From an uncultured Clostridia bacterium (GTDB lineage: Bacteria > Bacillota > Clostridia > Christensenellales > Borkfalkiaceae): a DNA stretch of 64,000 nt. Shown here piece after piece: positions 3,494 to 52,877 of this stretch. How positions within the stretch are numbered: position 1 is the stretch's first letter; the number at the start of each line of letters is the position of its first letter. A program made the position numbers and the translations under genes. The notes beneath the pieces were generated by a model. The model ran no database searches. It was not told the origin of the DNA and worked only from the letters and a program-made list of their open reading frames with translations. The stretch spans positions 1 through 64,000 of the forward strand of contig CANREM010000009.1 in NCBI GenBank assembly GCA_947629675.1, written 5' to 3'.

Positions 3494-3970
3494 TCATTGA
3501 TCGATCTTCTCTTTCTTTTCGGGAGCGACGGCTACCTTGCGGGCACGGCCGAGCGCGGCGGAAAATTCCTCATAATCCGCGATGAGTTTTTGCACCTTCG
3601 CCTCGCCGAGTTCTTCGACGACGGCCTCGATGATGGTGTTTGCCTGTTTGCACTGTTCCTCGAAGATCGCCATGGAACGGTCGGAGAGGCGGATATAGGC
3701 GATCTTTCTATCGTCGGGTGCGGCGGTGCGCTTGACGACGTCCCGCTGTTCGAGCTTTGTGACGACCTGCGAGACGGCCGAACGGGTGATCCCGAGACGG
3801 CGTGCAAGTTCGGAGGAGATGATGCTTCTCCCCTCTTTCCCCTCCATCACGATCTCACGGATGAGACGGAATTCCGTCTTGGAGAGCTTTGCGGCATCCG
3901 AGAAAAGATCGAGGCTCTCCATATCCTTGATGATCTTGAACAATTTTACAAGATATTCGTTTGTTTCCAC
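3494..3970 (-). CDS. MarR family transcriptional regulator
   Basis: 158 aa winged-helix protein with ELARRLGITRSAVSQVVTKLEQRDVVKR...DDRKIAYIRLSD. Confidence 0.9.
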   Translation of the reverse strand: METNEYLVKLFKIIKDMESLDLFSDAAKLSKTEFRLIREIVMEGKEGRSIISSELARRLGITRSAVSQVVTKLEQRDVVKRTAAPDDRKIAYIRLSDRSMAIFEEQCKQANTIIEAVVEELGEAKVQKLIADYEEFSAALGRARKVAVAPEKKEKIDQ

Positions 3971-4003
3971 AAGAATTATCCCCTTTGTATCATACTAAAC
4001 ATT

Positions 4004-4032
4004 ATTATACAAAGCGAACATTCAAATGTCAA
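4004..4032 (-). promoter_or_regulatory. Promoter of the marR-ABC operon (TTGACA-17 nt-TATAAT)
   Basis: Minus-strand TTGACA (4027-4032), 17-nt spacer, TATAAT (4004-4009). Confidence 0.75.
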
Positions 4033-4069
4033 ATGAATGAAACAAAAAATTGCAAAAAATCTAAAATAA

Positions 4070-5197
4070 TTATATGCCGCCTTCGGGCTTTTTGCCAAAG
4101 TAGGTGAGAAGGCTGCATTTCAGGTTCGCATTGAAGAGATAGCGGCGTTTATCCGCCCGTCCGAAGGCCTCTTCCGCGCCCTCATAGGAGGTGACAAAGT
4201 ACGCGCTCCAATCGGGGAGAGCGTGAAACGCGGCTGCAAAATTTCGGTAGAGGAAAAAAAGATCGACGCTCTTTATCCGCTCCCCGTAGGGCGGGTTGGA
4301 AATGAGGACGCCGTAGCGTTCTTGAAGAGAGAGGTCTTTCACATCCCGTACGGAGAAGGTGATGTCCTGCAGGACGCCCGCGCGGCGGGCATGCTCCCGC
4401 GCGGTCTCCACCGCCTTCGGGGAGATGTCGGAAGCGTAGATCGGGGCGATCGGACCGTGATATTCCCCCTCCCGCGCCTCTTCACGGATGGGCGGCAGGA
4501 GACTCTTTTGCACGCACTTCCAACTTTCAAAGTCAAATTTCCTGTCCCGTCCCGGGGCGATATTTCTCGCATAGAGGGCGGCCTCGATGGGAATGGTCCC
4601 GCTCCCCGAGAAGGGGTCGGCGAAGGCTTTATTCCTCCGATATAGGGAATCTTCGATGATGGCGGCAGCCGTGGTCTCGCGCAAGGGAGCCTCGCCCGTA
4701 AGGACGCGATAGCCGCGCCTGTGAAGGCCGTCGCCCGAGGTATCGAGGGTGATCTGCACCTCGTCCTCAAAGAGGGAGACGCCGACGATGGCCCGCTCTC
4801 CCCTTTCGTCGAAGGTGCGTACGTGCAGCCTTTCGCGAAGGCGGGAGAGGATCGCCTTTTTGACGACGCCGCCCGCAGCCTTGACGGCGGCGAGCTTGCT
4901 CTTTACGCTCTTTCCGTCGATGAGAATGCGGGCGTGCGGGGTGAGAAATTCCTCCCACGGAAGAGAAAAGACGCCCTCAAAGAGTGCGTCGAAAGTCTCG
5001 GCGTGAAAACTGCCGATAAGGATGAGAACGCGCTCGCCCGCACGCAAAAATACGTTGAGTTTTGCAACGTCCTCCCAGCTGCCCGAAAGGGCGATGCGAC
5101 CGCGAATGGCGGGGGCATGTCCGAAACCAAGGCGTTCTATTTCACGTTTTGCCGCCGCTTCGATACCGCTTGCGACGGGGATCAGAAGTTTCATCAC
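4070..5197 (-). CDS. THUMP domain class I SAM-dependent RNA methyltransferase (YpsC/RlmL type)
   Basis: DPFSGSGTIPIEAALYARNIAPG and NPPYGERI motifs. Confidence 0.9.
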   Translation of the reverse strand: MMKLLIPVASGIEAAAKREIERLGFGHAPAIRGRIALSGSWEDVAKLNVFLRAGERVLILIGSFHAETFDALFEGVFSLPWEEFLTPHARILIDGKSVKSKLAAVKAAGGVVKKAILSRLRERLHVRTFDERGERAIVGVSLFEDEVQITLDTSGDGLHRRGYRVLTGEAPLRETTAAAIIEDSLYRRNKAFADPFSGSGTIPIEAALYARNIAPGRDRKFDFESWKCVQKSLLPPIREEAREGEYHGPIAPIYASDISPKAVETAREHARRAGVLQDITFSVRDVKDLSLQERYGVLISNPPYGERIKSVDLFFLYRNFAAAFHALPDWSAYFVTSYEGAEEAFGRADKRRYLFNANLKCSLLTYFGKKPEGGI

Positions 5198-5210
5198 TTT
5201 GTCTTAAAAT

Positions 5211-6278
5211 TCATTCTTCCGTCTCGTCCACCGCCTCGGGATCGACGGGCTCCGGCTCGGGAATGAAGGGCTTCAAAGGGGAGGTCACGGGCGTTAAGTC
5301 GTACTTGTCGTCGACGTCGCCCAAAAGCTCCTCGATGATGTCCTCCCGCGTGATGAGGCCGAGCGCGTTCCCCTCCGAGCCGACGATCACCATGTGTTCG
5401 CGGCGGGATTGCATCCATTCCATGAGGTCGGCGACCTTCTCGTCCGTCTGCGTGAAGGAGACGGGACGCACGATATTGTCGAAATCACGACGCTTGGCGA
5501 GGAGATTTTCGTAGAAATCCGCGCGATAAAGGATGCCGATGATATTCTGCCGCGTCCCCTTATAGATGGGAAGGCGGGAGAAATTCGTCTCGCGGAAGAT
5601 CTTGAAGAGGAGATGAGAATCGTCGCGGATCTCCGCCATGACCACCCGGTCGAGAGGGATCATGCAGGAGCCGACGTGCAGTTCGTCGTAACGGAGCGTC
5701 TTGGTGATGAGATCGTGTTCCGTCTCGTTGATGGTCCCCTCCTCACGAACGTCGGAGACGAGCATCTTGAACTCTTCCTCGGTGATCTTCTTTTTCTTCT
5801 TATTGAGTCCGAAGACGAGGAAGATGAGCTGTTTCCACCACGAAAAGAGGTAGTTGAAGGGGGTGCAGATGTAGTAGCACACGAGGAGCGGATAGGCGAT
5901 GAAGCAGGCGAACCGCTCGGGATTTTCCTTTGCGAGCGTCTTGGGAGTGATCTCGCCGAAGATGAGGACCGCCACGGTCAAAACGATCGTGGAGATCGTC
6001 GGGCCAAGCTCCCCGCCCAATAAACGTGTAAAAAGTATCGTCGCGAGCGTTGCCGCGGCGATGTTTACGATATTATTCCCGATGAGGAGGGTGGTGAGTA
6101 CTTTGTTGTAATCCTCGCTCAATTTGAGCGCGACGCGCGCAGACTTGCGTTTTTGCGCAAAGCGTCGCATGCGGACCGTACTGAAGCTGGTGTATGCCGT
6201 CTCCGTCGCCGAGAAAAACCCGGAAAGGATCACAAGCACGAGAATTGCGACCAATAGCCCTATGTCGCCGCCATCCAT
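5211..6278 (-). CDS. Hemolysin-family CNNM/CBS-domain membrane protein
   Basis: N-terminal DUF21/CNNM TM region, FGEITPKTLAKENPE, tandem CBS domains. Confidence 0.9.
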   Translation of the reverse strand: MDGGDIGLLVAILVLVILSGFFSATETAYTSFSTVRMRRFAQKRKSARVALKLSEDYNKVLTTLLIGNNIVNIAAATLATILFTRLLGGELGPTISTIVLTVAVLIFGEITPKTLAKENPERFACFIAYPLLVCYYICTPFNYLFSWWKQLIFLVFGLNKKKKKITEEEFKMLVSDVREEGTINETEHDLITKTLRYDELHVGSCMIPLDRVVMAEIRDDSHLLFKIFRETNFSRLPIYKGTRQNIIGILYRADFYENLLAKRRDFDNIVRPVSFTQTDEKVADLMEWMQSRREHMVIVGSEGNALGLITREDIIEELLGDVDDKYDLTPVTSPLKPFIPEPEPVDPEAVDETEE

Positions 6279-36639: not shown

Positions 36640-39600
36640 TTAAACTCCATGTGTAGCAAAGCCTGTCGTTTCTCCTATGAGTGTGCCGTTCCATTTATAT
36701 TGTATATTGACATCACAGCATAGATAGCTCTTTCTATCCCAGCCTTGATTGGATAACGCATCTGTTGTAGCGCGTTCATTGTGTTCATTTACTTTTGTTC
36801 CATTACCTGTTCCACCTTGTTTACCATCGTTGTTCACATAATATGTAAAGGTCATATAGATAGAAATGAGATTGCTTTCCTTTGGCTCTCCAATCAATTC
36901 TCCGCCTGATAATATTTCCACTCTGGCATTATATTTATAACCCCAATCAAATTTCCTACTTGCACTACTTATGCTCACCTTCAATTCACTCAACCACATT
37001 GCATGAGCGCGGATAGGTTCTTCGGATGCCGTGATCTGCAACTTGTCGGGAAGTTTTTCCCACTTGCCGTCCGCATCCTTTGCATACCAGCCGAGGAATT
37101 TGTATGTGACGCCGTTGACCGTTGTTGCGCTGCCATCGGGGACGATGAGCGTGTGTTCGCTCGAATACTCGAAGGAATATTCCATCTTCGCGTCGAACCC
37201 ATAGACGGCGTCTTCGACGGTGATAGTGAAGCCAAGTTCGCTGTAATAGATAATTGTGTCCGGCTTGTACTGCACGATAAACGTTGCGCCGTATTCGCCG
37301 ATGAGTGCCGATTCCTCCGTCCAATAGCCGTTGCGCACTTCCGCTGCCTTCGGAAGATCGGTGGGAACGGCAAAGGTCTGGAGCTGCTTCCCCTCCTCGA
37401 CCGTATAGGACTTGAAGACCACACCGTTGGCGATAAATTCGATCGTGGAATAAGGACGCATCTTCGTCGTATAGGTGAACGACTTGCCGTCTGCGCTTGC
37501 CTTCCAAGCGTCGGAGAATTTGAAGTTGCTCGTGAATGTCACGGGGACGGGATCAAGCACGAAGGCCGGATAGATGTCCGCATTGCCCGTGATCGCCCTG
37601 TGCGGCCATTCGTATTTCCCCTCATTTTGCCGGCTGCCGTCCTGCGGGCAGGCAATCTTATTTTCTGCGGCGAGTTCATCGGCATAGACCGTGTTGTCAA
37701 ACTTGAGGTCGGCAACCGTGATGCCCCAATCGGAGAAGGCACTCATATCGTATCTGCCGTTATACCCCGTGCGCACGTCACTTACCGCCTTAACGACTTC
37801 TCCACCTTCATGATGATAGGTGACAGTGTAGGTTGCCATCGAAACGACATCCCCGCCATAGAACACGATGGAATCGGAACCGTATTTGAATTCCATGCGC
37901 ATGACGACGCCACCGTAGGTCGCACGCTCTGTCCAAACGAACGCGCCGAAAGTGCCGCTGTTCATCCCCGTCTGCGAGAAGCTGCCGACATTTGTGATCG
38001 GATCGCGGGTGACCGTGATATTCTGCTGGCCGCCGGGGGTATCGCTCGTACTGCCATCCCTGTTGAACAATACATAGTAGCCCGTGGTCGTAGGGGTCAT
38101 TTTGACTGCATCATAGATGTCGCCGCTCTTCGAACCGCTCGGAAGGCCGCCTGTGAGGGTGCCGCCGATATTGTACTGCGCACCGCCAAGCATGTTGTTC
38201 GTGTGGAAGCTCGTGATCTTGATATCGATATCCTCGATCCACATGGCGAAGATCTTGACAGTCGCCTGCGTCTTAAGATCGGTGTTGCGGAATCTCTCGA
38301 CATTGGTGATCGCAGTCCAATTCCCTGCATTGTCCTGATACCACCAACCAAGGCGGCGAAGGTCGGAGCGTTCTGTAAGGGTAAGCGTTTCTTCGGTGAT
38401 GTCGTAATCGCCTTCCATCTTCTTGACGGACTTATAGTATCCGTCGATATCGACCCCCATCCTGCCCGTAAAATCGTAGTCGCTATAGAGATGTACTTCG
38501 ACGGAGTTATCGATCCAATTCGCGAAGAGGACGTTCTGCTCATAGAAATCTTTGCTGTCACCCACTCGGAATTTGAAAATTTTACTGATGAGCCAATCGT
38601 TGATGACGGCGGGGTCGATCTTGATGCCCTGACCAAACCGCTCGGTGTAGTAGGCGTCGAAGTCAAATCCGCGCACATCCTCGCTCGCACCGAGGGTGAG
38701 CGGGTGCGGCGTGCCACCATAGACATAGGCATAGGTCTTTCTCCAATAGGAAGTCCCCTGAATGCCCTCGGAATCAAAGTTACCCTTGACTTCCTCAAAC
38801 CCATCGATACGCTTCAAGCTATATTCATGGATGTAGTAAGTGATGCCCGTGTATTTTGCATAGATCGTGTCGCCACCGAATGGCACGGTATAATCTTCGC
38901 TGAAATCCCAAACGCCCGTGTAGCCGTCTCTATTCGGGACCTTCGGAAGATTGGAGAGTTTATCGCCGGGGGTGAAGTCCTTGATCTCCACAACGATATC
39001 TTTCCCGCTTTCGCTGTCCTCCGCCTTGACGACGAAGCGAACATCCACGCCGCGCAGCTTCCAGACAGCATAGAGCGTGAGGTCATCGGAGGTCAGCGGG
39101 ACCTTCGTGTAGTGCGTCGACGTATCCTCCTTGGAGAGAGACCAACCGTTCAGAATATACCCTTCTGTTTCGACGTTGGCAGGAAGGGAAGTATCGCTGT
39201 CGTAGACATACTCGATGACTTTCTCGTAGTGGCCGTCAATGAGTGCAAAACCATCGATCGGCTGATCGCTCACAAGGGTGATGTGATAGGTGTTCGGCTC
39301 CCATATCGCATGGATGGTAACATTGCCTGCGATGGTGTGGCTCCCCTCTACGGCGGGAATATCCCAACCTTTGAAGGTGTAGCCTTCACGAATGGGGTCA
39401 ACAGGGTACTCTACTTTACCGCCAAAGTGCCCCGGTTTTTTTACAGCAGACTGTCCGTTGCCGAGATCGAAGGTGACCGTGTAGTCGATATACTCCCACT
39501 CTGCCCTGTATTCGACGGTAGGCTGATTGTAGAAGTCAAGGCCGCGGTGACTCTCGTTATGGAGCTTTTCGTTGGGGCAACGGAAGCCGATGATCTTTCC

Positions 39601-42600
39601 GACCTTCGTCGTGATATAAGGAAGGTCGATATAATTCTCGGAATCGTACGTCCAATGGAACAACTTGGTGTAAGCGTTCTGCGATGCATCCCACGAATAG
39701 CCCGCCGCCGCGAGTTGCTCCGGTGTGACCCCGTATGCTTCGACATCTTCAGGCTTGATGATGAAAGTAAGATCATAGACGTTGGCCTTCGGCCGGGCGT
39801 ATATGGTCATCTCTGACTTGAAAGCGGAAGTGTCGAAGGGTTCCCATTCGTATGTGTAGCCGTCCAGTGCGAGTTCGGGGTTCTTTTCGAGGAAATTCTT
39901 GATGGACGGATAGGAGAAGTTTGCATACAGTTCCTTCGTTGTGGGATCGAACACGATCTGTTGTTTACCGACTTCCTTGCCACCGAGGGAATAGACGACG
40001 GTCGCGAGTTGCCCCTCGAGATAGGTCGTTTCGAGCCAGTCAACGACTTTGAGTTTGTTCGCCATCGCCTGTTCGAGGATGTCGGCAATGCTCTCCGTCT
40101 TATCGTAGCAACCTTCATCGAATTTATACTCGGGGTTGCGGAGACGAAGGTCGGCATTGATGTTGACAACGCTTGCAATGGAGAAGTTCGGGATATTGAT
40201 GCTGCGAAGGACGCCCTTTTCCACGCCGAGATTGACGGTGATATCTTCGAAGCTATCACTATTGGTAAGCCCCGCGCCATTCAAAATAAGTTCATAGAGA
40301 AGATCCCCCTCCGCCGTTTCGCTCGGCTTATAGGTCGCACTCTTGATATATTTACTCAGAAGGTCGCCGAGATCAGAGGAAGCCGCCGTGCCGCCGCCCG
40401 TGCCGCCGCCAATGCTGCCCATGATAGTGGAAATGAGTTCTTCGCTCAGGTTGAACATGAAGCAGATGTTGTTCATCATGGTCGTAGTATCCTTCGCGAA
40501 GTTGGCAAGCGGCATTGCGCGATAGATGACTTCTTTCGGGATCAAATCCTTTGAGGTGCTGCCGTCGAAATATGTGGACTGCGTTCTGCGCAGATACATC
40601 ATTCCGTCTTTGATCGTGAGATCAAGTACGGTATCGCCTTTAATGATAACACTGCTTCCGGCAAGTCCCGCCAAGACGTTGCGAACGCCCGGATAGGAGA
40701 GTTTCGCATTCAGTGAGATCTGATTGTTTGCATCAAAGTTGACCGTGAGACCCACCACATTGATATTGATCGCCTCAAGTTCGATGCCAATGAGCGATAG
40801 GTCGAGGTGCAGGCTTCCATCGATATAGAACAGATCGTTGCGGACATATTCGTCCGTGCTGCCCGCGATGCCTTGCGTCACTTCGTCGAAGGTCGCCTTG
40901 TGCGTGGCGGTGCGGGCGAGGGCGAGAACGAGTTCGTCGACGCCCTCGATATCGAAGAAGCCCGTAAGATCTGTAGGCTTTTTCTCGGCGGATCCGACAC
41001 GGCTGAATTCGAAGGCGAGGTCGGAGGTCTTGGTGTAGGTCGCGTCGCCCGACTTCTCCTCCTCTTCCGTCGTGATGCCGAGAAGGGTGAGGTAGGAAGT
41101 ATCGCCATCCTTTTCCGACTTGAATTGGAGTTTGACATTGCCGAACTGCACGCCGAAGGCGTCCTCGGGGATCACCACGTTGTTTGCGATCGTGGCCGAA
41201 CTTTCCGTCTCGTCTGTATCCTTCAAGAGCATGTCGAGGATGGTGGGCACGAGGCTGACGCCCAAGCCCTTGAGGCGGGCGACCATGTCCTCATCAAGAA
41301 GGGGCTGGATGAGATATTGGTTGACATAGGTCACGGCGTCCATGCCGAGGATGGATGCCACACCCGAGAGAATGGTGAGGATCTCCTTTGCGGGGGCATA
41401 GAGCTTCAAAGGATTGTAGCCCTCGTTCCCCTCTCCGATCTGGGAGACGGAGACGAAGAAGTCAAGCTCTCCATCCGTCGCGCGTTCGAGATCACAGTCG
41501 GTGATGAAGATGTCGATGTAGAGGTTCTTGGGTGTGGTGTCGACGGGGGAACCGTTGACCATGGTCTGCTGCGTCCCCGCCTTGATGTAGAGATTGAAGT
41601 GCAAGAAGAAGTCCGTATTCACCTCGATGACGTTCTCATCCATGTCGAGCTTGATGGGGAAGGAGCCGCCCGAAGCGTATTGCATGTTGCCAGAGATATC
41701 GTAGACGAGGCCTTCGTTGCCTTCCGTTGTATACATGGCGGTGTTCGTGGACGTCACACTGCCGCCGATCGTGGCGGTGAGGTTGGAAGCGGACATAAGG
41801 GCGACCGCATCGCCCGCATAGCCGAGCATGTCGATGAAATCTCTGAGGTTGTAGAAGTCGCCTGCGATCTCGGGGAAATCTCCCGTGAAAACTGCCGTAT
41901 TCACGGTCGCAGAGAGAGTGGTTTTTGTCTCATCCCCGACGGTAAGCCCGAGGCCGAGGAGGCCGCGATCTTCAAATTTTGTCTCGTCGAAAAGCTCGAT
42001 CGTGAGCTTGCCGAGGGAGAAACCGAAGAGCTTCGTCCTTGCGTTTTCATCCGGTGTGAGGGCAGAGGACACAAGCTGCATGCCACCCATGTTCAGAACT
42101 TCCTTTGCGGAGACGGCCGCCGCCGCTGCATCCTTGCTCCCGCCGAGGAAGCCGATGAGATCATTGAGGACGTCGACGATGCCCTGCAAGCTGCCGACGA
42201 GGTCGTCGCGGCTGAAGGTGCCCGTAATGTTCTTCTTGATGTCGGCGATCGTCGCCTTCACGCGGGCGATGAGACCCTTGACGGCCTCGATGAGGTCGCC
42301 GATATCCGAGAAAGCAAATTCTACGCCGAAGCTACCGACCTTGAGTTTGGCCTTCTCCCCTATGATGAGAAGTTCGAGGTGGATATCGCCGAGCGAGGCC
42401 TTGAGGTAGAACTTCTTGTTTTCTTCCTTCCAGCTGAAGACGCCCTGCTCGATGGCGAGCTTCAATTCTCCGATCGTGAGGTCGCCCGAGAACTCGATTT
42501 CCTGCGCCTCGATGAGATCGACCACGCGCTTCACGATGGGCGTGATATCGTGATAGTCGCCCTCTGCGGGCTTTTCGAGCTGAGGTGCGCGGGTCGTCCC

Positions 42601-45600
42601 GTAGAGGTCGATGTGAAGCCCCGCCTTGTCGGGAAGGTCAAGCATGATCGAACCCTTCTCGATCGTAACAATTACGTCGCCGAGGTTGAAGTTGACGCCG
42701 AACGCTTTCAAAAGATCTGCGGTTGCAATGGTGACGGTGAGGGAATCGCTCTCGTCCACGGCGGCCGCAAGTTCCTCTTTAAGTTCAAACACTTTGCCGA
42801 AGTCAAGGGAAAGCAGTCTTTCGAGGGTATCCATGTCCGCGTCAGAGAGCGCGATCGGCGCGATCCTGCCCCTCGCCTCCTTTTTCGTCTTCTCATCCTT
42901 GATGATACGGATGACTTCGGAGACGTTCGCCATGAGCTTGACGTTTTCGCCCACTTTCACATAGATGAGAACGTCCTTCGTACTCGTTTCCGCGCCCTCT
43001 GTCTGATGCTCTTCGAGTACATAGATGAGGTCGAGGTTGAGGCTGCCATAGATGAGCGTCCCCTGTGCCATCGTGAAGTCCTTCTTGAATTTGAGGCTGA
43101 GGGTAAGAGGTTTACCGCCGATCGTGGCACGGATGTCCGCCTGCAAGGAGTTGGACGCGAGGATGTCCTTCACCATTTCGCCGTACTTTAATACGTCGAT
43201 ATACGTCGGGAGATCTTTGGTGTCTTCATCTGTGAGTGCAGTCTTATCGCTCTTGGAGAGGGAAACTTCGAGGGCGATATCCTTGCCCGAGGCAGAGGCA
43301 TCCGCCGAGACAGAGAAGACATTTTGGGAAATGGAGAGGCCGACGCTCTCGAGAGAGAACTTCTCGCCGAGGAGAGACTTCACCTTTTCGCCGAGGAGGT
43401 CCATGAGCTTTTCACCGCTCAGGGTGAGGGTGAGGACGCCGCCTTCCTCGGTGAGGGAGAAGGTATCGAAGCTCTCGAAGGAGAGCGTTTCCGCCTCGGA
43501 AATGACTGCAACGGCATAGCCGAGGGCAATCGTTTCGGACTTGCCTGCCTCTTTCCCTGTGACTTTTTGGAAGAGGCTCTTCAAAAGATTTAATATATTC
43601 TCCGTCTTTGCCTTGATCTTCACGCCGTCGAGGTCGAGATAGAGCCAGCCTTCCGTGTTGCCCTCTTCGCCTTCTTTCTTTTCATATATGAAGCTAAAGG
43701 TCTTCTCCTCGACGGAGCGATAGTTGAGCGTGATCTCGCCCTTCATGAAGGCGTTGCCCTTGATGACGTCGAGAGAAACATCGATCTTGAGATCGCCCGC
43801 CGAGATCGAGACGCCGATCGCCTTCGCCTCGGAGGAGAAGATGTCCTTCGCCCACTGCACATATTGCAGAACATCGGTGTAGCCCGCCTTCTCCTCGTCG
43901 GTCAGCGCAGTAAAGCCGTCTTTGCTACCCGTCGCAGTGATCGTTGCGCCGAGGACGGAGAGCGTGAGGCCGCCGTTTTGTTCCACTTCGACCGTAATAT
44001 TGCCGAGCTTGATGTCCTTGCCGAGAAGTTTTGCGAGAAGTTCCGTTCCCTTGACGGTGAGCGTGAGGGAATCCGCACCCTCCTTCCTTTCCTCCGCAAG
44101 TTCGAAGTAGTCGTCCAAGTTGAGAGAAAGGATGGTCTCGAGGATGCCGAGGATCTTATTCTTCTGATCCTCGGTGAGAGCGGCCTTAAGCGGTGTGCGG
44201 GCGGAGAGCCTGCGGCCGAGAGGCTCGCTCGAGCTGTTGTTCTTCGAGAATAGCCCCTTGACAAGATCGATAATAGCCTTTGCCTCTGCCTTGATCTTCG
44301 CGCCGTCGAGGTTGAGATAGATATAGCCGTCCTTGTCGTACACAATGCCGAGGGAAATTTTTGTCTCCCCTTTCGTGATGGTGATGTCCGCGCGAACCTG
44401 TGTATTCTTAATATTCTTAACATCGATGAAGAGGTCGCCTGCGATCGCGAAGTCCTTATCACTGTAATTGACTGTGATCTTGATGTAGTCTTGCTTGAAG
44501 ATGTTCACCACGCTGTCCACATAGGTGGAGAGGTCGGTATAGTCCGCTTCGTCCAATGTGATGGTGAGCCGGTCGCTTCTGCCCGAAACGGAGAGGTTCG
44601 CGCCGAGGATGGTAAGGGCAAGGCTATCCCTTTCAAGCTGAACGCCGATGTCGCCGAGCTTGAAGTCGCCGAGGGAGACCTTGAGCTTTTCGAGAAGCTG
44701 TGTGCCGTCCACAAGGATGGTGAGAACGTCTTCTTTTTCGCTCAAAGAGATGAGCTTGTTGAAATCGTCGAAGAGGCCTTCGAAGGCATCATCGGGTATT
44801 GTGATGTCGGAAAGTTCGTCCGTTCCCGAGACGCCGAGGTAACCGAGGATGAGGGCGACTGCCGAGGCGGTATTCGCCTTGAACTTGAAGTCGTCCTTCC
44901 CTTCTTCTCTTGCAAGAGTGAGATAGAGATACCCGTCCTTGTAGATGAGGTCGAGGTGCTTGTTTGCGCCCTTGTAGCCGAGGTTGAGGGCGGCGGTCGC
45001 CGTCTTGCTCTCGGTATCGAAGGAGACCTTCCCTTCGATCGTGAGATCGTTCTTCGCGTAAGAGATCGTGAGGTCGTATGCCTTGTTGCGGAAGAGCTCG
45101 ACGGCAAAGTCGACATACTTCACAAGGTCGATGTAGTCTTCCTTATCAGCAATGCCCTTAAAGTTATCGGTGCCAACTGCGGAAAGGGTTGCATCAATGG
45201 TAAACTTCTCCGCCACAACGGACAGGCCGAGGCTGTCCGTCGCGACTTCGAGCTGAATGCTGTCGAGCTTGAAGTCGGAGCCGAGGAGCTTCATGAGTTT
45301 TTCGCCGTTGACGGCAAGGGCGAGAACGTTGTTTTCGACATTCACGCCGAAGAGGTCTTTCTCGGCAAAGATTGCCGCAAGACGGAGCGCGTGCGCCGAG
45401 GCGGGTTCTTTATTCTTGAGTTTGTCGATGAGGGCCTGGATGTCCTCGATGCTCGCCTTGAGCTTGACGCCGCCAAGTTCGAGATAGAGGGTATTCTTGC
45501 CGTTTTCCTTCTCGTAGTAGAGCGTGAGCGTGAGAGACTTTTCGCCCACTCCCAAAGTGAGCGTGCCGCCCGCAAGGGTGCCGTCCGTCCTGATGTCGAT

Positions 45601-48600
45601 GTCGCCCGAGGCAGAGATCTCCGTCTCCCCCGCCTGCACGGTGAGCTTTTCGATATGGAGCTTCAAAATGTCAGACTTGAAGAGTTTGGAGATGTAGTCG
45701 ATATATTGGAGAATATCGGCGTACCCCGCCTTCTCCTCGTCGGTCAGCGCAGTAAAGCCGGTTTCCGAACCCGTCGCGGTGATCGTTGCGCCGAGGATGG
45801 AGAGCGTGAGACCGCCGTTTTGTTCCACTTCGACCGTAATATTGCCGAGCTTGATGTCCTTGCCGAGAAGTTTTGCGAGAAGTTCCGTTCCCTTGACGGT
45901 GAGCGTGAGGGAATCCGCGCCCTCCTTCCTTTCCTCTGCAAGTTCGAAGTAGTCGTCGAGGTTGAGGGAGAGAATGGTCTCGAGGATGTCGATGAGCTTG
46001 CTCTTCTGGTCCTCGGTGAGAGCGGCCTTAAGCGGCGTGCGGGCAGAGAGCCTGCGGCCGAGAGGCTCGCTCGGGCTGTCGTTCTTCGAGAATAGCCCCT
46101 TGACAAGATCGATAATCGCCTTTGCCTCTGCCTTGATCTTCGCACCGTCGAGGTTGAGATAGATATAGCCGTCCTTGTCGTAGGCGATGCCGAGGGAAAT
46201 TTTTGTCTCCCCTTTCGTGATGGTGATGTCCGCGCGAACCTGTGTATTCTTAATATTCTTAACATCGATGAAGAGGTCGCCTGCGATCGCGAAGTCCTTA
46301 TCACTGTAATTGACTGTGATCTTGATGTAGTCTTGCTTGAAGATGTTCACCACGCTGTCCACATAGGTGGAGAGGTCGGTATAGTCCGCTTCGTCCAATG
46401 TGATGGTGAGCCGGTCGCTTCTGCCCGAAACGGAGAGGTTCGCGCCGAGGATGGTAAGGGCAAGGCTATCCCTTTCAAGCTGAACGCCGATGTCGCCGAG
46501 CTTGAAGTCGCCGAGGGAGACCTTGAGCTTTTCGAGAAGCTGTGTGCCGTCCACAAGGATGGTGAGAACGTCTTCTTTTTCGCTCAAAGAGATGAGCTTG
46601 TTGAAATCGTCGAAGAGGCCTTCGAAGGCATCATCGGGTATTGTGATGTCGGAAAGTTCGTCCGTTCCCGAGACGCCGAGGTAACCGAGGATGAGGGCGA
46701 CTGCCGAGGCGGTATTCGCCTTGAACTTGAAGTCGTCCTTCCCTTCTTCTCTTGCAAGAGTGAGATAGAGATACCCGTCCTTGTAGATGAGGTCGAGGTG
46801 CTTGTTTGCGCCCTTGTAGCCGAGGTTGAGGGCGGCGGTCGCCGTCTTGCTCTCGGTATCGAAGGAGACCTTCCCTTCGATCGTGAGATCGTTCTTCGCG
46901 TAAGAGATCGTGAGGTCGTATGCCTTGTTGCGGAAGAGCTCGACGGCAAAGTCGACATACTTCACAAGGTCGATGTAGTCTTCCTTATCAGCAATGCCCT
47001 TAAAGTTATCGGTGCCAACTGCGGAAAGGGTTGCATCAATGGTAAACTTCTCCGCCACAACGGACAGGCCGAGGCTGTCCGTCGCGACTTCGAGCTGAAT
47101 GCTGTCGAGCTTGAAGTCGGAGCCGAGGAGCTTCATGAGTTTTTCGCCGTTGACGGCAAGGGCGAGAACGTTGTTTTCGACATTCACGCCGAAGAGGTCT
47201 TTCTCGGCAAAGATTGCCGCAAGACGGAGCGCGTGCGCCGCCGCGGGTTCTTTATTCTTGAGTTTGTCGATGAGGGTCTTGATGTCCTCGATGCTCGCCT
47301 TGAGCTTGACGCCGCCAAGTTCGAGATAGAGGGTATTCTTGCCGTTTTCTTTCTCGTAGTAGAGCGTGAGCGTGAGAGACTTTTCGCCCACTCCCAAAGT
47401 GAGCGTGCCGCCCGCGAGAGAGCCGTCCGTCTTGATGTCGATGTCGCCCGAAGCAGAGATCTCCGTCTCCCCTGCCTGCACGGTGAGCTTTTCGATATGG
47501 AGCTGCAAGATTTCAGACTTGAAGAGTTTGGAGATGTAGTCGATATATTGGAGAATATCGGCGTACCCCGCTTTCTCCTCGTCGGTCAGCGCAGTAAAGC
47601 CGTCTTTGCTACCCGTCGCAGTGATCGTTGCGCCGAGGACGGAGAGCGTGAGGCCGCCGTTTTGTTCCACTTCGACCGTAATATTGCCGAGCTTGATGTC
47701 CTTGCCGAGAAGTTTTGCGAGAAGTTCCGTTCCCTTGACGGTGAGCGTGAGGGAATCCGCACCCTCCTTCCTTTCCTCCGCAAGTTCGAAGTAGTCGTCC
47801 AAATTGAGCGAGAGAATGGTCTCGAGGATGTCGAGGATCTTATTCTTCTGCTCCTCCGTGAGCGCGGCCTTAAGCGGCGTGCGGGCAGAGAGCCTGCGGC
47901 CGAGAAGCTCGCCGCTGTCTTGCTCCGAATTGTCATTCTTTGAGAAGAGACCCTTGATGCGGTCGATGATCTGCTGCGCACTTGCCTTGATCTTCGCGCC
48001 ATCGAGGTTCAGATAGATATAGCCGTCCTTGTCGTAGGCGATGCCGAGCTTGATCGATGTCCCATCCTTCTCGATGGTGATGTCCGCACGGGCCTGCTTG
48101 CCCTTGACGTCGATGGAAATCTTGCCATTCACCTTGAACGGATCCGCCTCTTTCCCATAGGCAAGGCTCAAAGTGATGTAGTCCTGTTTGAAAACATTGA
48201 CGACGCTGTCGAGATAGCCCGAGAGGTCGGTGTAACCCGTCTTTTCCTCATCGGTGAGGGTGGAGAGCGTCGCGCCGCTTCCGTTCACTTCGACACTGAG
48301 TCCCTTGACGGAGGCATAGAGGAAGTTTTCTGCGATCTGCAGGTCCACTTCTCCGAGGTCGAGGTCGATGCCGAGTGCCTTCAGAAGGGCGGAACCGTCG
48401 AGAAGGACGGTGAGGATGCGTGCGTCCCCTTCCTCCGTCTCGTGAAGGGTGAGAAGCCCTTCGAGGCTCGTGTCGAGGACTCTGTCAAGCCCCTCTTCCC
48501 AAGTCGCGCCGTCCTCCGAGAGGCCGAGATAGCCCGCGAGAAGGGCGATTGCCCCCGCCGTCTTTGCCTTGAGATGATAGGAATTGCCGAGGGCGAGATA

Positions 48601-51600
48601 GAACCAGCCGTCCTCATAGGCGAAGGAGACCTCTTTCGCCGCCTCTTTATAGATGAGGATGAGACTGCCGCGGGCGAGTTTCTTTGCGGTGTCGAAGGAG
48701 ACGTCGGCGCGGACTTTGAGAGATGTCCCGTTATAGGAAGCCGTGACTTTATAGGTATTGTTGGCAAAGAGATCGAGGAGGTATTTCCCGTAAGTGACGA
48801 TATCGACATACCCCTCTGTGTTCTGCTTTTCGAACGCTTCGCCGCCGCGGACGGAGAGGGCGAGCTTTCCGTCCATGACATGGAGAGAGATGTGCCCTTC
48901 CGTATCCAAAGAAAGTGCCACATCGCCAAGGTCGAAAGAGAGTCCGAGGGCGGAAAGAAGCTGCGTCCCCTTCACCGTGAGGGTGAGGGTACTGTCCGCG
49001 CCGCTTTGCACCTCTGAAAGAGTAAAGAATTCGCCGAGGTCGAAGGAGAGCAATTTTTCGAGGACGGTAAGCCCTTCCTCTTCCTGCGTTTCCACGTCTG
49101 AAGCCCTGCCCCTTACGTTTGCGGGCTTTACTTTTTGGATGAGCGACTTGACAAGGTCCACCGCATCCGTGACGTTCGCCCGAAGTTTGACGCCGTCGAT
49201 GGCGAGATAGATGATGTTCTCTTCCTTCGTCCAAAGAAGGGAGATCGCATGTTCCGTCTTGCTCCCCTCTTTGTTCCGGTAGGCGAGGGTAAGGTCGCCC
49301 TGTGCGGCCGTGCCGTCGAGAAGAATGTCGATGGCACCCTGAAGCGAGATCTTTTCGCCTCCGTCGTAGCTGACGTTGACCGTGAGAGCCTTTGCATTTG
49401 CAAATGCAGCGACCGCGCCGAGGTAATCGGTGATGTCGAGGAACTGCCCGCTCGGCCCCTCGAAAGAGGAACCTGCCGCCGCCGTGAGAACGATCTTGCC
49501 GAGTTTGGCGGTCGCACCCTTCCCATCGACCGCAAGGCGGAGATCGCCGAGGTCGAGAGAGACGCCGAAGAGGGAGAGAAGTTTTCCGCTCGCAACCGTG
49601 ATATGCAGTGCGCCGTCCGATTCCCAAAGTTCGGGGATGAGTTCGGAGAAGTTTGCTCCGAGGAGTGCTTTGATGGCGTCGATCTCCTCGCCGCTGCTGC
49701 CGAGATCAAGGAGACCGCCGAGAAGCTCTGCCCCCTCCTCTACATTCACTTTGAGGCGGATATTATCTACGGCAAGGAAGATCTCCCCGCCTTCGTAGAA
49801 GATGTCCACGTCCTTCTGCTTGTTGCCGGAGATGAGAGAGAGGGTGGCGGCGACATTGAAGGATCTAAGGTCGATGTCCACCCTGCCCGCGATCCCGAGA
49901 CTGCCGATGGGAACATTCACATTGAGGGCAAGGTAGCCGCTTTGATAGATCTCCAGAATGGTCTTTGCATAGGGCACGATCTCGGAGTAGCCGTCGACGG
50001 AATATTCGAAAGCATTGCCCGCCTTGATCTCAGCCGAAACGCCGTCCGCCGTGAGGGTGATGCCTTTCTCTTCGATGGAGAGGGCAATATCGCCGAGGTC
50101 GAAGGAAAGCCCGAGGGCATGAAGAAGATCCGTCCCCGCGACCGTGAGGGTGAGGGTATCCTCCTTTGCGGAGAGCTTGACAAGTTCGGAGAAGTTAAGG
50201 GCGAAGAGGTCCGCAACGATCTTGAGAGCATCGCCGTCCCCGGAGGGGATCTCGACAAATTCCCGGACGAGTCCGATGGCATCCTTTACATTCGCCTTGA
50301 TGCGAAGGCCATCGACCGTGAGATAGAGTTCTCCGTCCGCATAGAGGACTTCGAGCGTTTTCGGAGTACCCATGTACGAGAGGGTGAACGTCCCTTTCGC
50401 GGCGAGTTTCTTCACATCGAGGGTGAGGCCGCCCGTCACGGAGAGCGTTTCGCCCGTGTAGGAGACCTCGGCCGCAAGGTAGCCGCCCGAGACAAGCTCT
50501 GCGATGCGTGCGGCGTAGGGAACGATGTCGGTATATCCTTCGGGCGTGAAGGTGAACGTCTCCCCCTTCTTCAGGGAAACGGTCACGCCGAGCGCGCCCA
50601 AAGAGAGCGTTTCGGGAGCGATCTCGAGGGAGACGTCGCCGAGCGCGAAGTCGATGCCGAGGGCACTCAAAATATTCGTCCCGCGCAGAAGGAGATGCAG
50701 TTTGCTCTCCTCCCCGGTGGCGATGACGTTTTGCGCAAATTCGGAGGAGAGGAGATTTCCGACCACATCCCCTATATCCAACGATAGCCCGCCTTCCGTG
50801 AGCGAGCTGAAATCGAGATATTTCGAAATGAGAGAACCTGCGTCGGAAATGCCCGCACGCAGTTTGATGCCGTCGAGGTCGAGATAGACCGTCCCCTCCT
50901 TATAGGCGAGAGAGACCTTCTTTTCCGCATTGTAAGCGGGGAGCTTCACGGCAATGTCTCCCTTCAAAGCGAACGGGGAGACGGCGATGTCGATGCCGCC
51001 TACGACCTGTACGCCGTGCCCTTCATAGCCGAGATCGGCGTGAAGCGCGGGCGAGGTGAAGAGATCGACAAGGCTTTGGATGTGCGGAACAAGTTCGATA
51101 TAGTCCGCCTTCTCCCCCTCCTTGAGGGCGGGGATGGCCTCGCCGCCGAAGGAGATATCCGCGCCGATCGCAAGCCCGTCGAGGTCGAGCGAGACGGCAG
51201 CATGGTCGAGGGTGACATTCTTTTCCTCGTCCACATTGAAGTAGAAGTCGATGGGGATCTCGTAGCCGAGAAGGGGCAGTCTGGAATGCAGTTCCGCCTT
51301 CCCGTCCTCTGCTTTGAATTCGCCGTTTGCGAGCGCGCCGAGAAGATCGTCGGTGTTGAGTCCGCCGCCCTCTTCCTCTTCTGCCTCCGCCGCAGGCTGT
51401 GCGGGCGTGAGGAGGGAGAGCAGCTCGGAGAGGGAGAGCGAGAGTTTGGCACCGCCGTAACTGATGTATGCCTTCCCCCCTTCCACCCAGAGGTTGAGTG
51501 CCCCAAGCCCGACGCGCGCCTCGATGGCACCGACGTCAAAGGCAGAAAGATCTGTCTTGCTCAGGTCCACAAAGGCGGTCCCCGCTGTCTGCTTTCCGCC

Positions 51601-52782
51601 GATCGAGAGGTCGAGCTTCAGCGTCGTAGGCTCGGCAAGGAGCGGTCCGAACGCGCCCGCCAAGGCATCGAGTGCAGTGATGGGACGTTCGAAATCGGTA
51701 TCGGGAGCCGCATCCATGTAGTGTTGGAAGTATTCTTCGTAGGCGTCGGGATAGGGATTATCCGTCTCGTTGTAAGGCTCGTAAGAATAGGTGGTGGTGC
51801 CGCCGCCCTTGCAGGGAGCCTTGATGGGACCGTATGCCGCGCTGTAATTTTCCTCCACGACCGTCGCATAGGTCACCCAATTTTCATCGAAGTAGTAGGT
51901 GATGTTGAGGGAGGTAAATTCGGGGGCCTCGGGAAGTCCGCCCGTGAAGATCATCTGGTTGATGTAGTAGGCGTTCGCGCCCTTGACGATGGTATTGCCG
52001 TTTGCATCCTTGTCCGTCCAGATGTCCGGATTCATCACAAAATCCGCTCTGTAGAGCGTTCCCCCATCCTGCCGTGCCCGCCTTATGGCCGCCCGTGCGG
52101 CAGCTTTTTCGGGATAATACAATTCGTATTCCTCATCGGTCGCCTCGCGGACGGTGGAGGAAAGCACGGTGTTCGGCTCGATGACGTAGGGGCTGAGTTC
52201 ATATGCGGGAAGGCCGTTTATGGACTTGAACCCATTCTCACCTGAGATCGTCATGTTGCGGTAGGGATCGCCGCTCTGCCAAGGAGTGTCCAATTTATCG
52301 TAGGTGGAGGAGCCGCCCGCAGCCTCACGCCAAAGGACGCGGTCGTTGTCCTTTACATAACAAAATTCCCGCGCGGCATTCACGAGAGAACTTTCCGTGA
52401 TGTCCGCCGAGATGAGCATGCCGTCCTTATAGTACTTGTATGTATGTACGTCCTGTGTGACGACGGTATTCACATATCCCGAATACTCGCCGTACCACTC
52501 CGTCTGCTGGGCGAAAGTCCAATTGAGGCGGCCGAAGATGTCGACGGGATCGTAGCCGCCGGAAGCGGTATAGACCTCCCCCTGTTCCACGGGCGTTATG
52601 ACGGAGCCGTAGGAAAGATCGACGGCATTGCGTTTCGCCTCCTTTGTAAATGCGGCGATGATGCTCCCCGCACCGACGCCCACGGCGACGAGTGCGGAGA
52701 GGACGGCGACGGCCTTCATGCCGCCGCTCCAATGGCCGCTCCTGATCCCTGAATGTTTGACGGGTTTGCTATTATAACGCAT
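36640..52782 (-). CDS. Giant (about 5,380 aa) secreted repetitive protein with C-terminal InlB/Listeria-Bacteroides-type repeats
   Basis: Single uninterrupted ORF; ATG at 52782 with GGAGGGTCAAA RBS; N-terminal signal/TM (MKAVAVLSALVAVGVGAGSIIAAF); about 16 units of about 205 aa; VTFDLGNGQSAVKKPGHFGGKVEYPVDPIREGYTFKGWD repeats. Confidence 0.9.
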   Translation of the reverse strand: MRYNSKPVKHSGIRSGHWSGGMKAVAVLSALVAVGVGAGSIIAAFTKEAKRNAVDLSYGSVITPVEQGEVYTASGGYDPVDIFGRLNWTFAQQTEWYGEYSGYVNTVVTQDVHTYKYYKDGMLISADITESSLVNAAREFCYVKDNDRVLWREAAGGSSTYDKLDTPWQSGDPYRNMTISGENGFKSINGLPAYELSPYVIEPNTVLSSTVREATDEEYELYYPEKAAARAAIRRARQDGGTLYRADFVMNPDIWTDKDANGNTIVKGANAYYINQMIFTGGLPEAPEFTSLNITYYFDENWVTYATVVEENYSAAYGPIKAPCKGGGTTTYSYEPYNETDNPYPDAYEEYFQHYMDAAPDTDFERPITALDALAGAFGPLLAEPTTLKLDLSIGGKQTAGTAFVDLSKTDLSAFDVGAIEARVGLGALNLWVEGGKAYISYGGAKLSLSLSELLSLLTPAQPAAEAEEEEGGGLNTDDLLGALANGEFKAEDGKAELHSRLPLLGYEIPIDFYFNVDEEKNVTLDHAAVSLDLDGLAIGADISFGGEAIPALKEGEKADYIELVPHIQSLVDLFTSPALHADLGYEGHGVQVVGGIDIAVSPFALKGDIAVKLPAYNAEKKVSLAYKEGTVYLDLDGIKLRAGISDAGSLISKYLDFSSLTEGGLSLDIGDVVGNLLSSEFAQNVIATGEESKLHLLLRGTNILSALGIDFALGDVSLEIAPETLSLGALGVTVSLKKGETFTFTPEGYTDIVPYAARIAELVSGGYLAAEVSYTGETLSVTGGLTLDVKKLAAKGTFTLSYMGTPKTLEVLYADGELYLTVDGLRIKANVKDAIGLVREFVEIPSGDGDALKIVADLFALNFSELVKLSAKEDTLTLTVAGTDLLHALGLSFDLGDIALSIEEKGITLTADGVSAEIKAGNAFEYSVDGYSEIVPYAKTILEIYQSGYLALNVNVPIGSLGIAGRVDIDLRSFNVAATLSLISGNKQKDVDIFYEGGEIFLAVDNIRLKVNVEEGAELLGGLLDLGSSGEEIDAIKALLGANFSELIPELWESDGALHITVASGKLLSLFGVSLDLGDLRLAVDGKGATAKLGKIVLTAAAGSSFEGPSGQFLDITDYLGAVAAFANAKALTVNVSYDGGEKISLQGAIDILLDGTAAQGDLTLAYRNKEGSKTEHAISLLWTKEENIIYLAIDGVKLRANVTDAVDLVKSLIQKVKPANVRGRASDVETQEEEGLTVLEKLLSFDLGEFFTLSEVQSGADSTLTLTVKGTQLLSALGLSFDLGDVALSLDTEGHISLHVMDGKLALSVRGGEAFEKQNTEGYVDIVTYGKYLLDLFANNTYKVTASYNGTSLKVRADVSFDTAKKLARGSLILIYKEAAKEVSFAYEDGWFYLALGNSYHLKAKTAGAIALLAGYLGLSEDGATWEEGLDRVLDTSLEGLLTLHETEEGDARILTVLLDGSALLKALGIDLDLGEVDLQIAENFLYASVKGLSVEVNGSGATLSTLTDEEKTGYTDLSGYLDSVVNVFKQDYITLSLAYGKEADPFKVNGKISIDVKGKQARADITIEKDGTSIKLGIAYDKDGYIYLNLDGAKIKASAQQIIDRIKGLFSKNDNSEQDSGELLGRRLSARTPLKAALTEEQKNKILDILETILSLNLDDYFELAEERKEGADSLTLTVKGTELLAKLLGKDIKLGNITVEVEQNGGLTLSVLGATITATGSKDGFTALTDEEKAGYADILQYIDYISKLFKSEILQLHIEKLTVQAGETEISASGDIDIKTDGSLAGGTLTLGVGEKSLTLTLYYEKENGKNTLYLELGGVKLKASIEDIKTLIDKLKNKEPAAAHALRLAAIFAEKDLFGVNVENNVLALAVNGEKLMKLLGSDFKLDSIQLEVATDSLGLSVVAEKFTIDATLSAVGTDNFKGIADKEDYIDLVKYVDFAVELFRNKAYDLTISYAKNDLTIEGKVSFDTESKTATAALNLGYKGANKHLDLIYKDGYLYLTLAREEGKDDFKFKANTASAVALILGYLGVSGTDELSDITIPDDAFEGLFDDFNKLISLSEKEDVLTILVDGTQLLEKLKVSLGDFKLGDIGVQLERDSLALTILGANLSVSGRSDRLTITLDEADYTDLSTYVDSVVNIFKQDYIKITVNYSDKDFAIAGDLFIDVKNIKNTQVRADITITKGETKISLGIAYDKDGYIYLNLDGAKIKAEAKAIIDLVKGLFSKNDSPSEPLGRRLSARTPLKAALTEDQKSKLIDILETILSLNLDDYFELAEERKEGADSLTLTVKGTELLAKLLGKDIKLGNITVEVEQNGGLTLSILGATITATGSETGFTALTDEEKAGYADILQYIDYISKLFKSDILKLHIEKLTVQAGETEISASGDIDIRTDGTLAGGTLTLGVGEKSLTLTLYYEKENGKNTLYLELGGVKLKASIEDIQALIDKLKNKEPASAHALRLAAIFAEKDLFGVNVENNVLALAVNGEKLMKLLGSDFKLDSIQLEVATDSLGLSVVAEKFTIDATLSAVGTDNFKGIADKEDYIDLVKYVDFAVELFRNKAYDLTISYAKNDLTIEGKVSFDTESKTATAALNLGYKGANKHLDLIYKDGYLYLTLAREEGKDDFKFKANTASAVALILGYLGVSGTDELSDITIPDDAFEGLFDDFNKLISLSEKEDVLTILVDGTQLLEKLKVSLGDFKLGDIGVQLERDSLALTILGANLSVSGRSDRLTITLDEADYTDLSTYVDSVVNIFKQDYIKITVNYSDKDFAIAGDLFIDVKNIKNTQVRADITITKGETKISLGIVYDKDGYIYLNLDGAKIKAEAKAIIDLVKGLFSKNNSSSEPLGRRLSARTPLKAALTEDQKNKILGILETILSLNLDDYFELAEERKEGADSLTLTVKGTELLAKLLGKDIKLGNITVEVEQNGGLTLSVLGATITATGSKDGFTALTDEEKAGYTDVLQYVQWAKDIFSSEAKAIGVSISAGDLKIDVSLDVIKGNAFMKGEITLNYRSVEEKTFSFIYEKKEGEEGNTEGWLYLDLDGVKIKAKTENILNLLKSLFQKVTGKEAGKSETIALGYAVAVISEAETLSFESFDTFSLTEEGGVLTLTLSGEKLMDLLGEKVKSLLGEKFSLESVGLSISQNVFSVSADASASGKDIALEVSLSKSDKTALTDEDTKDLPTYIDVLKYGEMVKDILASNSLQADIRATIGGKPLTLSLKFKKDFTMAQGTLIYGSLNLDLIYVLEEHQTEGAETSTKDVLIYVKVGENVKLMANVSEVIRIIKDEKTKKEARGRIAPIALSDADMDTLERLLSLDFGKVFELKEELAAAVDESDSLTVTIATADLLKAFGVNFNLGDVIVTIEKGSIMLDLPDKAGLHIDLYGTTRAPQLEKPAEGDYHDITPIVKRVVDLIEAQEIEFSGDLTIGELKLAIEQGVFSWKEENKKFYLKASLGDIHLELLIIGEKAKLKVGSFGVEFAFSDIGDLIEAVKGLIARVKATIADIKKNITGTFSRDDLVGSLQGIVDVLNDLIGFLGGSKDAAAAAVSAKEVLNMGGMQLVSSALTPDENARTKLFGFSLGKLTIELFDETKFEDRGLLGLGLTVGDETKTTLSATVNTAVFTGDFPEIAGDFYNLRDFIDMLGYAGDAVALMSASNLTATIGGSVTSTNTAMYTTEGNEGLVYDISGNMQYASGGSFPIKLDMDENVIEVNTDFFLHFNLYIKAGTQQTMVNGSPVDTTPKNLYIDIFITDCDLERATDGELDFFVSVSQIGEGNEGYNPLKLYAPAKEILTILSGVASILGMDAVTYVNQYLIQPLLDEDMVARLKGLGVSLVPTILDMLLKDTDETESSATIANNVVIPEDAFGVQFGNVKLQFKSEKDGDTSYLTLLGITTEEEEKSGDATYTKTSDLAFEFSRVGSAEKKPTDLTGFFDIEGVDELVLALARTATHKATFDEVTQGIAGSTDEYVRNDLFYIDGSLHLDLSLIGIELEAININVVGLTVNFDANNQISLNAKLSYPGVRNVLAGLAGSSVIIKGDTVLDLTIKDGMMYLRRTQSTYFDGSTSKDLIPKEVIYRAMPLANFAKDTTTMMNNICFMFNLSEELISTIMGSIGGGTGGGTAASSDLGDLLSKYIKSATYKPSETAEGDLLYELILNGAGLTNSDSFEDITVNLGVEKGVLRSINIPNFSIASVVNINADLRLRNPEYKFDEGCYDKTESIADILEQAMANKLKVVDWLETTYLEGQLATVVYSLGGKEVGKQQIVFDPTTKELYANFSYPSIKNFLEKNPELALDGYTYEWEPFDTSAFKSEMTIYARPKANVYDLTFIIKPEDVEAYGVTPEQLAAAGYSWDASQNAYTKLFHWTYDSENYIDLPYITTKVGKIIGFRCPNEKLHNESHRGLDFYNQPTVEYRAEWEYIDYTVTFDLGNGQSAVKKPGHFGGKVEYPVDPIREGYTFKGWDIPAVEGSHTIAGNVTIHAIWEPNTYHITLVSDQPIDGFALIDGHYEKVIEYVYDSDTSLPANVETEGYILNGWSLSKEDTSTHYTKVPLTSDDLTLYAVWKLRGVDVRFVVKAEDSESGKDIVVEIKDFTPGDKLSNLPKVPNRDGYTGVWDFSEDYTVPFGGDTIYAKYTGITYYIHEYSLKRIDGFEEVKGNFDSEGIQGTSYWRKTYAYVYGGTPHPLTLGASEDVRGFDFDAYYTERFGQGIKIDPAVINDWLISKIFKFRVGDSKDFYEQNVLFANWIDNSVEVHLYSDYDFTGRMGVDIDGYYKSVKKMEGDYDITEETLTLTERSDLRRLGWWYQDNAGNWTAITNVERFRNTDLKTQATVKIFAMWIEDIDIKITSFHTNNMLGGAQYNIGGTLTGGLPSGSKSGDIYDAVKMTPTTTGYYVLFNRDGSTSDTPGGQQNITVTRDPITNVGSFSQTGMNSGTFGAFVWTERATYGGVVMRMEFKYGSDSIVFYGGDVVSMATYTVTYHHEGGEVVKAVSDVRTGYNGRYDMSAFSDWGITVADLKFDNTVYADELAAENKIACPQDGSRQNEGKYEWPHRAITGNADIYPAFVLDPVPVTFTSNFKFSDAWKASADGKSFTYTTKMRPYSTIEFIANGVVFKSYTVEEGKQLQTFAVPTDLPKAAEVRNGYWTEESALIGEYGATFIVQYKPDTIIYYSELGFTITVEDAVYGFDAKMEYSFEYSSEHTLIVPDGSATTVNGVTYKFLGWYAKDADGKWEKLPDKLQITASEEPIRAHAMWLSELKVSISSASRKFDWGYKYNARVEILSGGELIGEPKESNLISIYMTFTYYVNNDGKQGGTGNGTKVNEHNERATTDALSNQGWDRKSYLCCDVNIQYKWNGTLIGETTGFATHGV
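43855..47890 (-). repeat. Near-identical tandem repeat, period 1,842 bp (614 aa), about 2.2 copies, inside the giant gene
   Basis: Anchors at 43864/45706/47548 and 44491/46333 offset exactly 1,842 nt; long stretches identical. Confidence 0.92.
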
Positions 52783-52848
52783 TTTGACCCTCCTTCGCAA
52801 AGAAGTCACAACACGATGATGACATGTGTAATATTGGTTTATGACATC

Positions 52849-52877
52849 ATTCTACCAACTTTATGACAGCTTGTCAA
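52849..52877 (-). promoter_or_regulatory. Promoter of the giant gene
   Basis: Minus strand TTGACA, 17-nt spacer, TAGAAT, about 65 nt upstream of the ATG. Confidence 0.75.

Follow-up and report, generated by a model that had tools for sequence, protein, structure and literature searches.

The window analysed here, a stretch of 64,000 nucleotides from an uncultured Clostridia bacterium, carries on its minus strand an uninterrupted ORF of exactly 5,380 aa (36640-52782, from ATG 52782). An initial annotation had described one uninterrupted ORF of 16.1 kb and ~5,380 aa, with a good promoter and RBS, and left the strand unstated; this description holds, with a TTGACA-17 nt-TAGAAT promoter and a GGAGGG five bases before the ATG. 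The product is strongly acidic, with a net charge of about -309, and has nine cysteines, none of them within the repeat array. The features of the gene are, in the direction of reading:

52849..52877, minus strand: sigma-A-like promoter TTGACA-17-TAGAAT, read directly in the sequence
52788..52793, minus strand: RBS GGAGGG, 5 nt before ATG 52782
36640..52782, minus strand: single ORF, 5,380 aa
52645..52728, minus strand: N-terminal signal-anchor/TM segment, residues ~19-46 (hydropathy)
51628..52635, minus strand: N-terminal domain, residues ~50-385 (alignments of relatives, dN/dS)
41863..51627, minus strand: array of about 16 tandem domains, predicted to be LolA/LprG-like, residues 386-3640 (unit HMM, direct coupling analysis, AlphaFold2, Foldseek)
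44215..47826, minus strand: three-unit block present twice in tandem, period 1,842 bp; units in equivalent positions share 95-100% protein identity
36640..41862, minus strand: C-terminal region, residues ~3641-5380 (blastp to relatives)
39043..39480, minus strand: InlB/Listeria-Bacteroides-type repeats, residues ~4434-4580, limits approximate (Pfam PF09479, TIGR02543)

An assembly fusion or a chance ORF can be ruled out. Orthologues from independent MAGs have the same architecture, and L068 (sample Lapin-023), which shares 94% of the N-terminal domain with the window protein, carries the same number of units in the same order. The gene is adjoined by dap genes, a tRNA-Thr, a GH3 enzyme that precedes it, and ABC-transporter half-genes. 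Of the relatives compared, about half have an ABC-importer-like cluster immediately ahead of the giant gene. The window has none; thus no fixed partner gene is indicated, and the cluster was rejected as a conserved partner. Where we inspected it (L062, L063, L118, L125, L053, L071), it consists of a substrate-binding-like lipoprotein, a permease and an ATPase, and looks NitT/TauT-like by eye.

The N-terminal signal/TM of the initial annotation corresponds to the sole hydrophobic segment of the protein, and most relatives likewise have a basic N-terminus and one TM segment ahead of the N-terminal domain. Neither an LPxTG-like motif, whose absence had been noted before, nor a hydrophobic C-terminal tail is present in the window protein. 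No match to a sortase or to Omp85 was found in the window's genome, an absence that is not absolute in an assembly 91% complete, searched with working controls. In L060, from the same genus (LIGC), and in L169, L171 and L182, from other genera, the plain TM is replaced by a lipobox-like motif (called by eye and by pattern, without a dedicated predictor), and this suggests that the N-terminus is attached to the membrane on its outer side. We infer that the window protein is outward-facing and held at its N-terminus, and its earlier description as a secreted giant is supported. The N-terminal domain that follows the anchor is the most constrained region of the protein (dN/dS 0.06-0.12) and has no relation to the repeat unit detectable at sequence level (hhalign, no match). 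The idea that this domain or the C-terminal region consists of extra unit copies likewise found no support in hhalign comparisons.

The array was delimited with a unit HMM built from the anchors that the initial annotation had named. Once refined, it recognised 15 full units at residues 495-3540, scoring 84-198 bits each, preceded by a leading second-half unit at residues 386-471 and followed by a faint trace at residues 3610-3684. With a mean spacing of about 202 aa, 15 full units and a leading half, the earlier count of roughly 16 units of ~205 aa was accurate. The first half of the unit reads LTLTVxGTxLLxxLGxxFxLGDV... and the second YxDIxxY...LF..., then strands and DGxxYLxLDGxKxKA. Hydrophobic and polar residues alternate along the strands, and the near-invariant positions are Tyr, Leu and Gly only. 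No sequence match in Pfam, NCBIfam or the PDB explains the unit, which, as had been suspected, belongs to no named family in Pfam or NCBIfam. Searches against Pfam, NCBIfam, PADLOC and PHROG families gave no coherent match, the hits of single members looking like noise, and matches to VDAC were rejected (E 0.1-1, over one 39-residue stretch).

Downstream of the array, the C-terminal region can be aligned by blastp with the corresponding region of the complete relatives compared. Flg_new (PF09479; E 2.4e-13, 50.4 bits against a cut-off of 27) is the sole Pfam domain found in the window protein, in which no adhesive domain was recognised, and TIGR02543 matches the same repeats. The Listeria-Bacteroides repeats assigned earlier to the last third of the protein are therefore present, but they are recognisable only near residues 4434-4580, the later part being loosely similar. 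Their number differs among relatives, and Flg_new repeats by themselves do not prove adhesion.

Units were found in 31 of the 61 genomes of a relatives search, 30 belonging to the window's genus (37 genomes, including the window's own) and one to a different family of the order, which we take to be Christensenellales. Most genomes of the genus have orthologues, and some of its members have no unit match. Records that carry a name assign the group to Candidatus Gallimonas and to uncultured Clostridia, and many of them derive from the gut of rabbits ('Lapin') or chickens. When 297 genomes of the order were sampled, diverged units turned up, mostly within long ORFs of about 1,000-3,400 aa, in three further families (f19, f28, f32) and in other genera of the window's family. 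Beyond the order, a class sample of 388 genomes gave just two marginal matches (E about 8e-4), and a phylum sample of 398 genomes gave none apart from the window's own genome. A phage or plasmid origin was rejected, there being no tblastn match. One contig assigned to an f19 genome (L135, G282:C41) has units with scores as high as 227 bits, which no other f19 genome approaches; this genome also has a normal, weak f19-type homologue on C5, and the contig is probably a misbinned Gallimonas contig, or else reflects horizontal transfer.

The length of the array varies widely. Among 31 non-redundant complete relatives there are 1-13 full units, compared with 15.5 in the window protein, while the N-terminal domain and the C-terminal region are kept. 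Two further relatives, L183 and L184, have about 18-19 units in open frames of 6,238 and 5,888 aa that run off the fetched stretch and are longer than the window protein. Within the window, the two copies of the 1,842-bp block, a duplication that the initial annotation did not mention, share 92-97% DNA identity over the compared core. Units at the ends of the array are orthologous one-to-one, and in order, with those of L068 and L049, whereas the middle blocks are 95-100% identical to each other within the window protein and only 62-75% identical to L068. L049 has one three-unit block fewer, and L054 (7313-13342) carries a 1,146-bp two-unit block five times in nearly identical form and a sixth time in diverged form, likely a site of rapid length variation. 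The array thus changes in length by recombination and homogenisation between tandem blocks, as expected of a spacer.

Selection acts unevenly along the protein. Measured against L049, the N-terminal domain has a dN/dS of 0.12, the array 0.34 and the C-terminal region 0.24-0.26; the closer L068 gives 0.06 for the N-terminal domain and 0.37 for the array, which is the least constrained part of the protein (0.34-0.37). An array that evolves fast and varies in copy number, in a protein with no known adhesive domain and with no counterpart in some members of the genus, might belong to a coat or bulk surface fibre, that is, a repeat protein of structural or immune-decoy function that lacks a specific ligand. 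The strong purifying selection on the N-terminal domain, and a C-terminal region that remains alignable across the genus, argue against this explanation, which we consider quite unlikely. The uneven selection is in keeping with a stalk, the reading developed below.

How the units fold was approached through residue couplings and structure prediction. In a mean-field direct coupling analysis of 356 unit-and-a-half sequences, 52 of the top 250 couplings linked the second half of one unit to the first half of the next; 17 linked the two halves in the phase of the initial annotation, where the background, given by successive first halves, is 14. The couplings led us to reject that phase as the folding domain and favour a predicted domain shifted by half a unit, made of the second half of one unit and the first half of the next, with a helix, six strands, a helical lid and five strands. 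Distant matches are also better in the shifted phase, for example 41.4 versus 35.2 bits for G127, though the alignments differ and the comparison is supporting only. AlphaFold2 modelled three units, with 85 related rows, at pLDDT 88 and pTM 0.61, and the shifted domain alone (residues 927-1107) at pLDDT 85.5 and pTM 0.78, the latter in the order helix, six strands, two lid helices, two strands, helix, three strands.

Both models resemble mycobacterial LprG. When the shifted-domain model was compared with the PDB by Foldseek, LprG came first (probability 1.00, E 2.6e-3, TM 0.39-0.43), and further LprG entries and LprF also matched; the three-unit model matched LprG and RseB with probability 1.00, with target-normalised TM for LprG of 0.42-0.47. 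Overall, the matches to LprG, RseB and LprF have Foldseek probabilities of 0.85-1.00, those to LprG 0.96-1.00. Matches to DNA sliding clamps were spurious (TM about 0.1-0.2), and a viral structure library gave no credible match. The LolA superfamily is built on a core of 11 strands, and its lid loop, L7, takes a helical form in LprG and LolB (PMC6363788); LprG itself has 10 strands apposed by six helices (PMC4709180); the order of elements in our model fits the published superfamily layout (PMC6363788). These predictions favour an array of discrete domains of ~180-200 aa, each with its own helical lid, that resemble LprG/LolA beta-clam proteins.

The initial annotation had proposed that the strands could form an extended beta-groove or a stalk. 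A continuous, repeating groove would be a conduit like the bridge-like lipid transfer proteins of the VPS13/AsmA type, and the long amphipathic strands, the tandem units and the well-ordered junction between the two halves of the unit in the three-unit model are all compatible with it. The predominance of couplings that join a second half to the first half after it (52, as against 17 in the earlier phase and a background of 14) points the other way, and Foldseek finds LprG-like single domains, with no match of the AsmA, TamB, VPS13 or LptA type in its top 50. The couplings and models thus give no support to the groove, which we regard as very improbable; the stalk, the other option, is supported.

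The likeness to LprG should be read as a resemblance in fold and not as membership. Superpositions on LprG give TM 0.36-0.47 overall, below 0.5, with an rmsd of 8-12 A, and an hhalign comparison of the unit profile with the ~300-aa LppX-like lipoproteins of the same order failed (prob 0.1, from only four sequences). LppX_LprAFG (PF07161) is among the commonest weak Pfam matches of family members, in four of the 85 three-unit rows and three of the 100 single domains, all below cut-off and sporadic; it matches neither pieces of the window nor anything else in the window's own genome. Thus, the structural match to a lipid-binding family that the initial annotation had envisaged was found in part: LprG is the best match, but at low TM and with no sequence match above cut-off. 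The unit is predicted to have a LolA/LprG-like fold. Separately, proteins of about 300 aa resembling LppX_LprAFG occur in other families of the order (L185, L186, L187, L188); three carry a lipobox-like motif, and L186 scores 17.6 bits with the domain HMM.

Because of this fold, an array that binds lipids is the main rival to a stalk. Each bead would have an LprG/LolA-type cavity, and the array would capture lipids or other hydrophobic ligands (membrane lipids, bile acids, dietary fats) or relay them between the membrane and the outside. LprG, which with RseB is the closest structure, binds triacyl lipids and passes them on (PMC4709180), members of the LolA superfamily are united by a hydrophobic ligand pocket (PMC6363788), and the alternating strands and predicted helical lid are consistent with such a pocket. 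A unit number that ranges from 1 to 19 would be odd for a fixed conduit, however, and the array is the part under least constraint, with no conserved polar residues to mark a cavity rim. The relatives have no lipid exporter in common as a partner, the importer being upstream in about half of them and absent from the window, and nothing points to a second membrane that could act as acceptor. We therefore think multi-site lipid binding unlikely. It is also improbable, a little more so, that all of the roughly 16 beads keep a lipid-binding cavity and form a tandem lipid-carrier string that projects outward from a monoderm's cytoplasmic membrane; such a string would be a multi-site device for surface lipid capture or hand-over, of which we found none described for any bacterium.

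The reading that we consider probable is that of a fibrillar surface protein with an N-terminal anchor, a length-variable stalk of LolA/LprG-like beads and a C-terminal region presented outward. An anchor, a constrained N-terminal domain, a copy-variable array and a C-terminal region that is conserved and bears InlB-type repeats all emerge directly from the computation. In this model, in what would be a monoderm lineage of gut Clostridia (the Candidatus Gallimonas group), the N-terminus would stay in the cytoplasmic membrane, each domain would fold as an 11-stranded beta-clam with a helical lid, and the beads would extend through and beyond the wall. The stalk, 65-80 nm long by our estimate of roughly 4-5 nm per domain, would most likely hold the C-terminal region away from the membrane, where it may contact host glycans, mucus, other cells or a wall component, and its length could be altered by recombination between tandem blocks. 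The shortest forms count against the stalk, since with only 1-2 units they could scarcely reach past the wall of a Gram-positive cell.

A survey of the open-licence literature on tandem LolA folds, fibrillar adhesins, giant extracellular proteins and the surface proteins of this order turned up nothing equivalent. The protein brings to light a domain that probably forms stalks and that Pfam and NCBIfam lack, a tandemly used lookalike of single-domain lipid-carrier lipoproteins; it also suggests that giant surface proteins can be anchored N-terminally in Clostridia with no detectable sortase. Found widely across a single order of gut bacteria, the family is a candidate for a major surface structure in gut lineages that have received little study. 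Should the cavities indeed bind lipid, the array would amount to lipid-handling machinery of a new type.

Several known systems share parts of this design. Gram-positive fibrillar adhesins combine a stalk of tandem domains with an adhesive domain (PMC8286594), and the window protein is like them in its long tandem array, copy-number variation and export signal; it differs in that they are attached by a C-terminal sortase motif whereas it is anchored in the membrane at its N-terminus, so that its polarity would be reversed, and in having a stalk domain absent from Pfam and no recognised adhesive domain. With InlB B-repeat, or Listeria-Bacteroides repeat, proteins (PF09479) it shares at least two recognisable repeats in its C-terminal region, but these make up little of its length, and their number differs from one relative to another. 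The giant extracellular proteins of Apilactobacillus kunkeei, of 3,000-8,000 aa, are comparable by description, with no sequence similarity claimed, in size and in their long internal repeats; theirs are mostly alpha-helical or other repeats, with a signal peptide and a C-terminal DUF5776 (PMC12863079). The closest likeness is to LprG, LppX and LprF (PF07161; LolA/LolB beta-clam superfamily, CATH 2.50.20), which match the predicted helix, six strands, helical lid and five strands over ~180-200 aa, include the best PDB structural match of the unit (probability up to 1.00), and are exported; some relatives of the window protein would also share their lipobox anchoring. The TM of 0.36-0.47 and the lack of a match above the Pfam cut-off set the window protein apart from them, as do its N-terminal TM in place of a lipobox lipid anchor and its build, with 1-19 tandem copies per chain in this family and a single domain in theirs. 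What appears to be new is thus a giant surface protein built of a repeated domain that the family libraries lack and that is nearest, in predicted fold, to single-domain lipid carriers.
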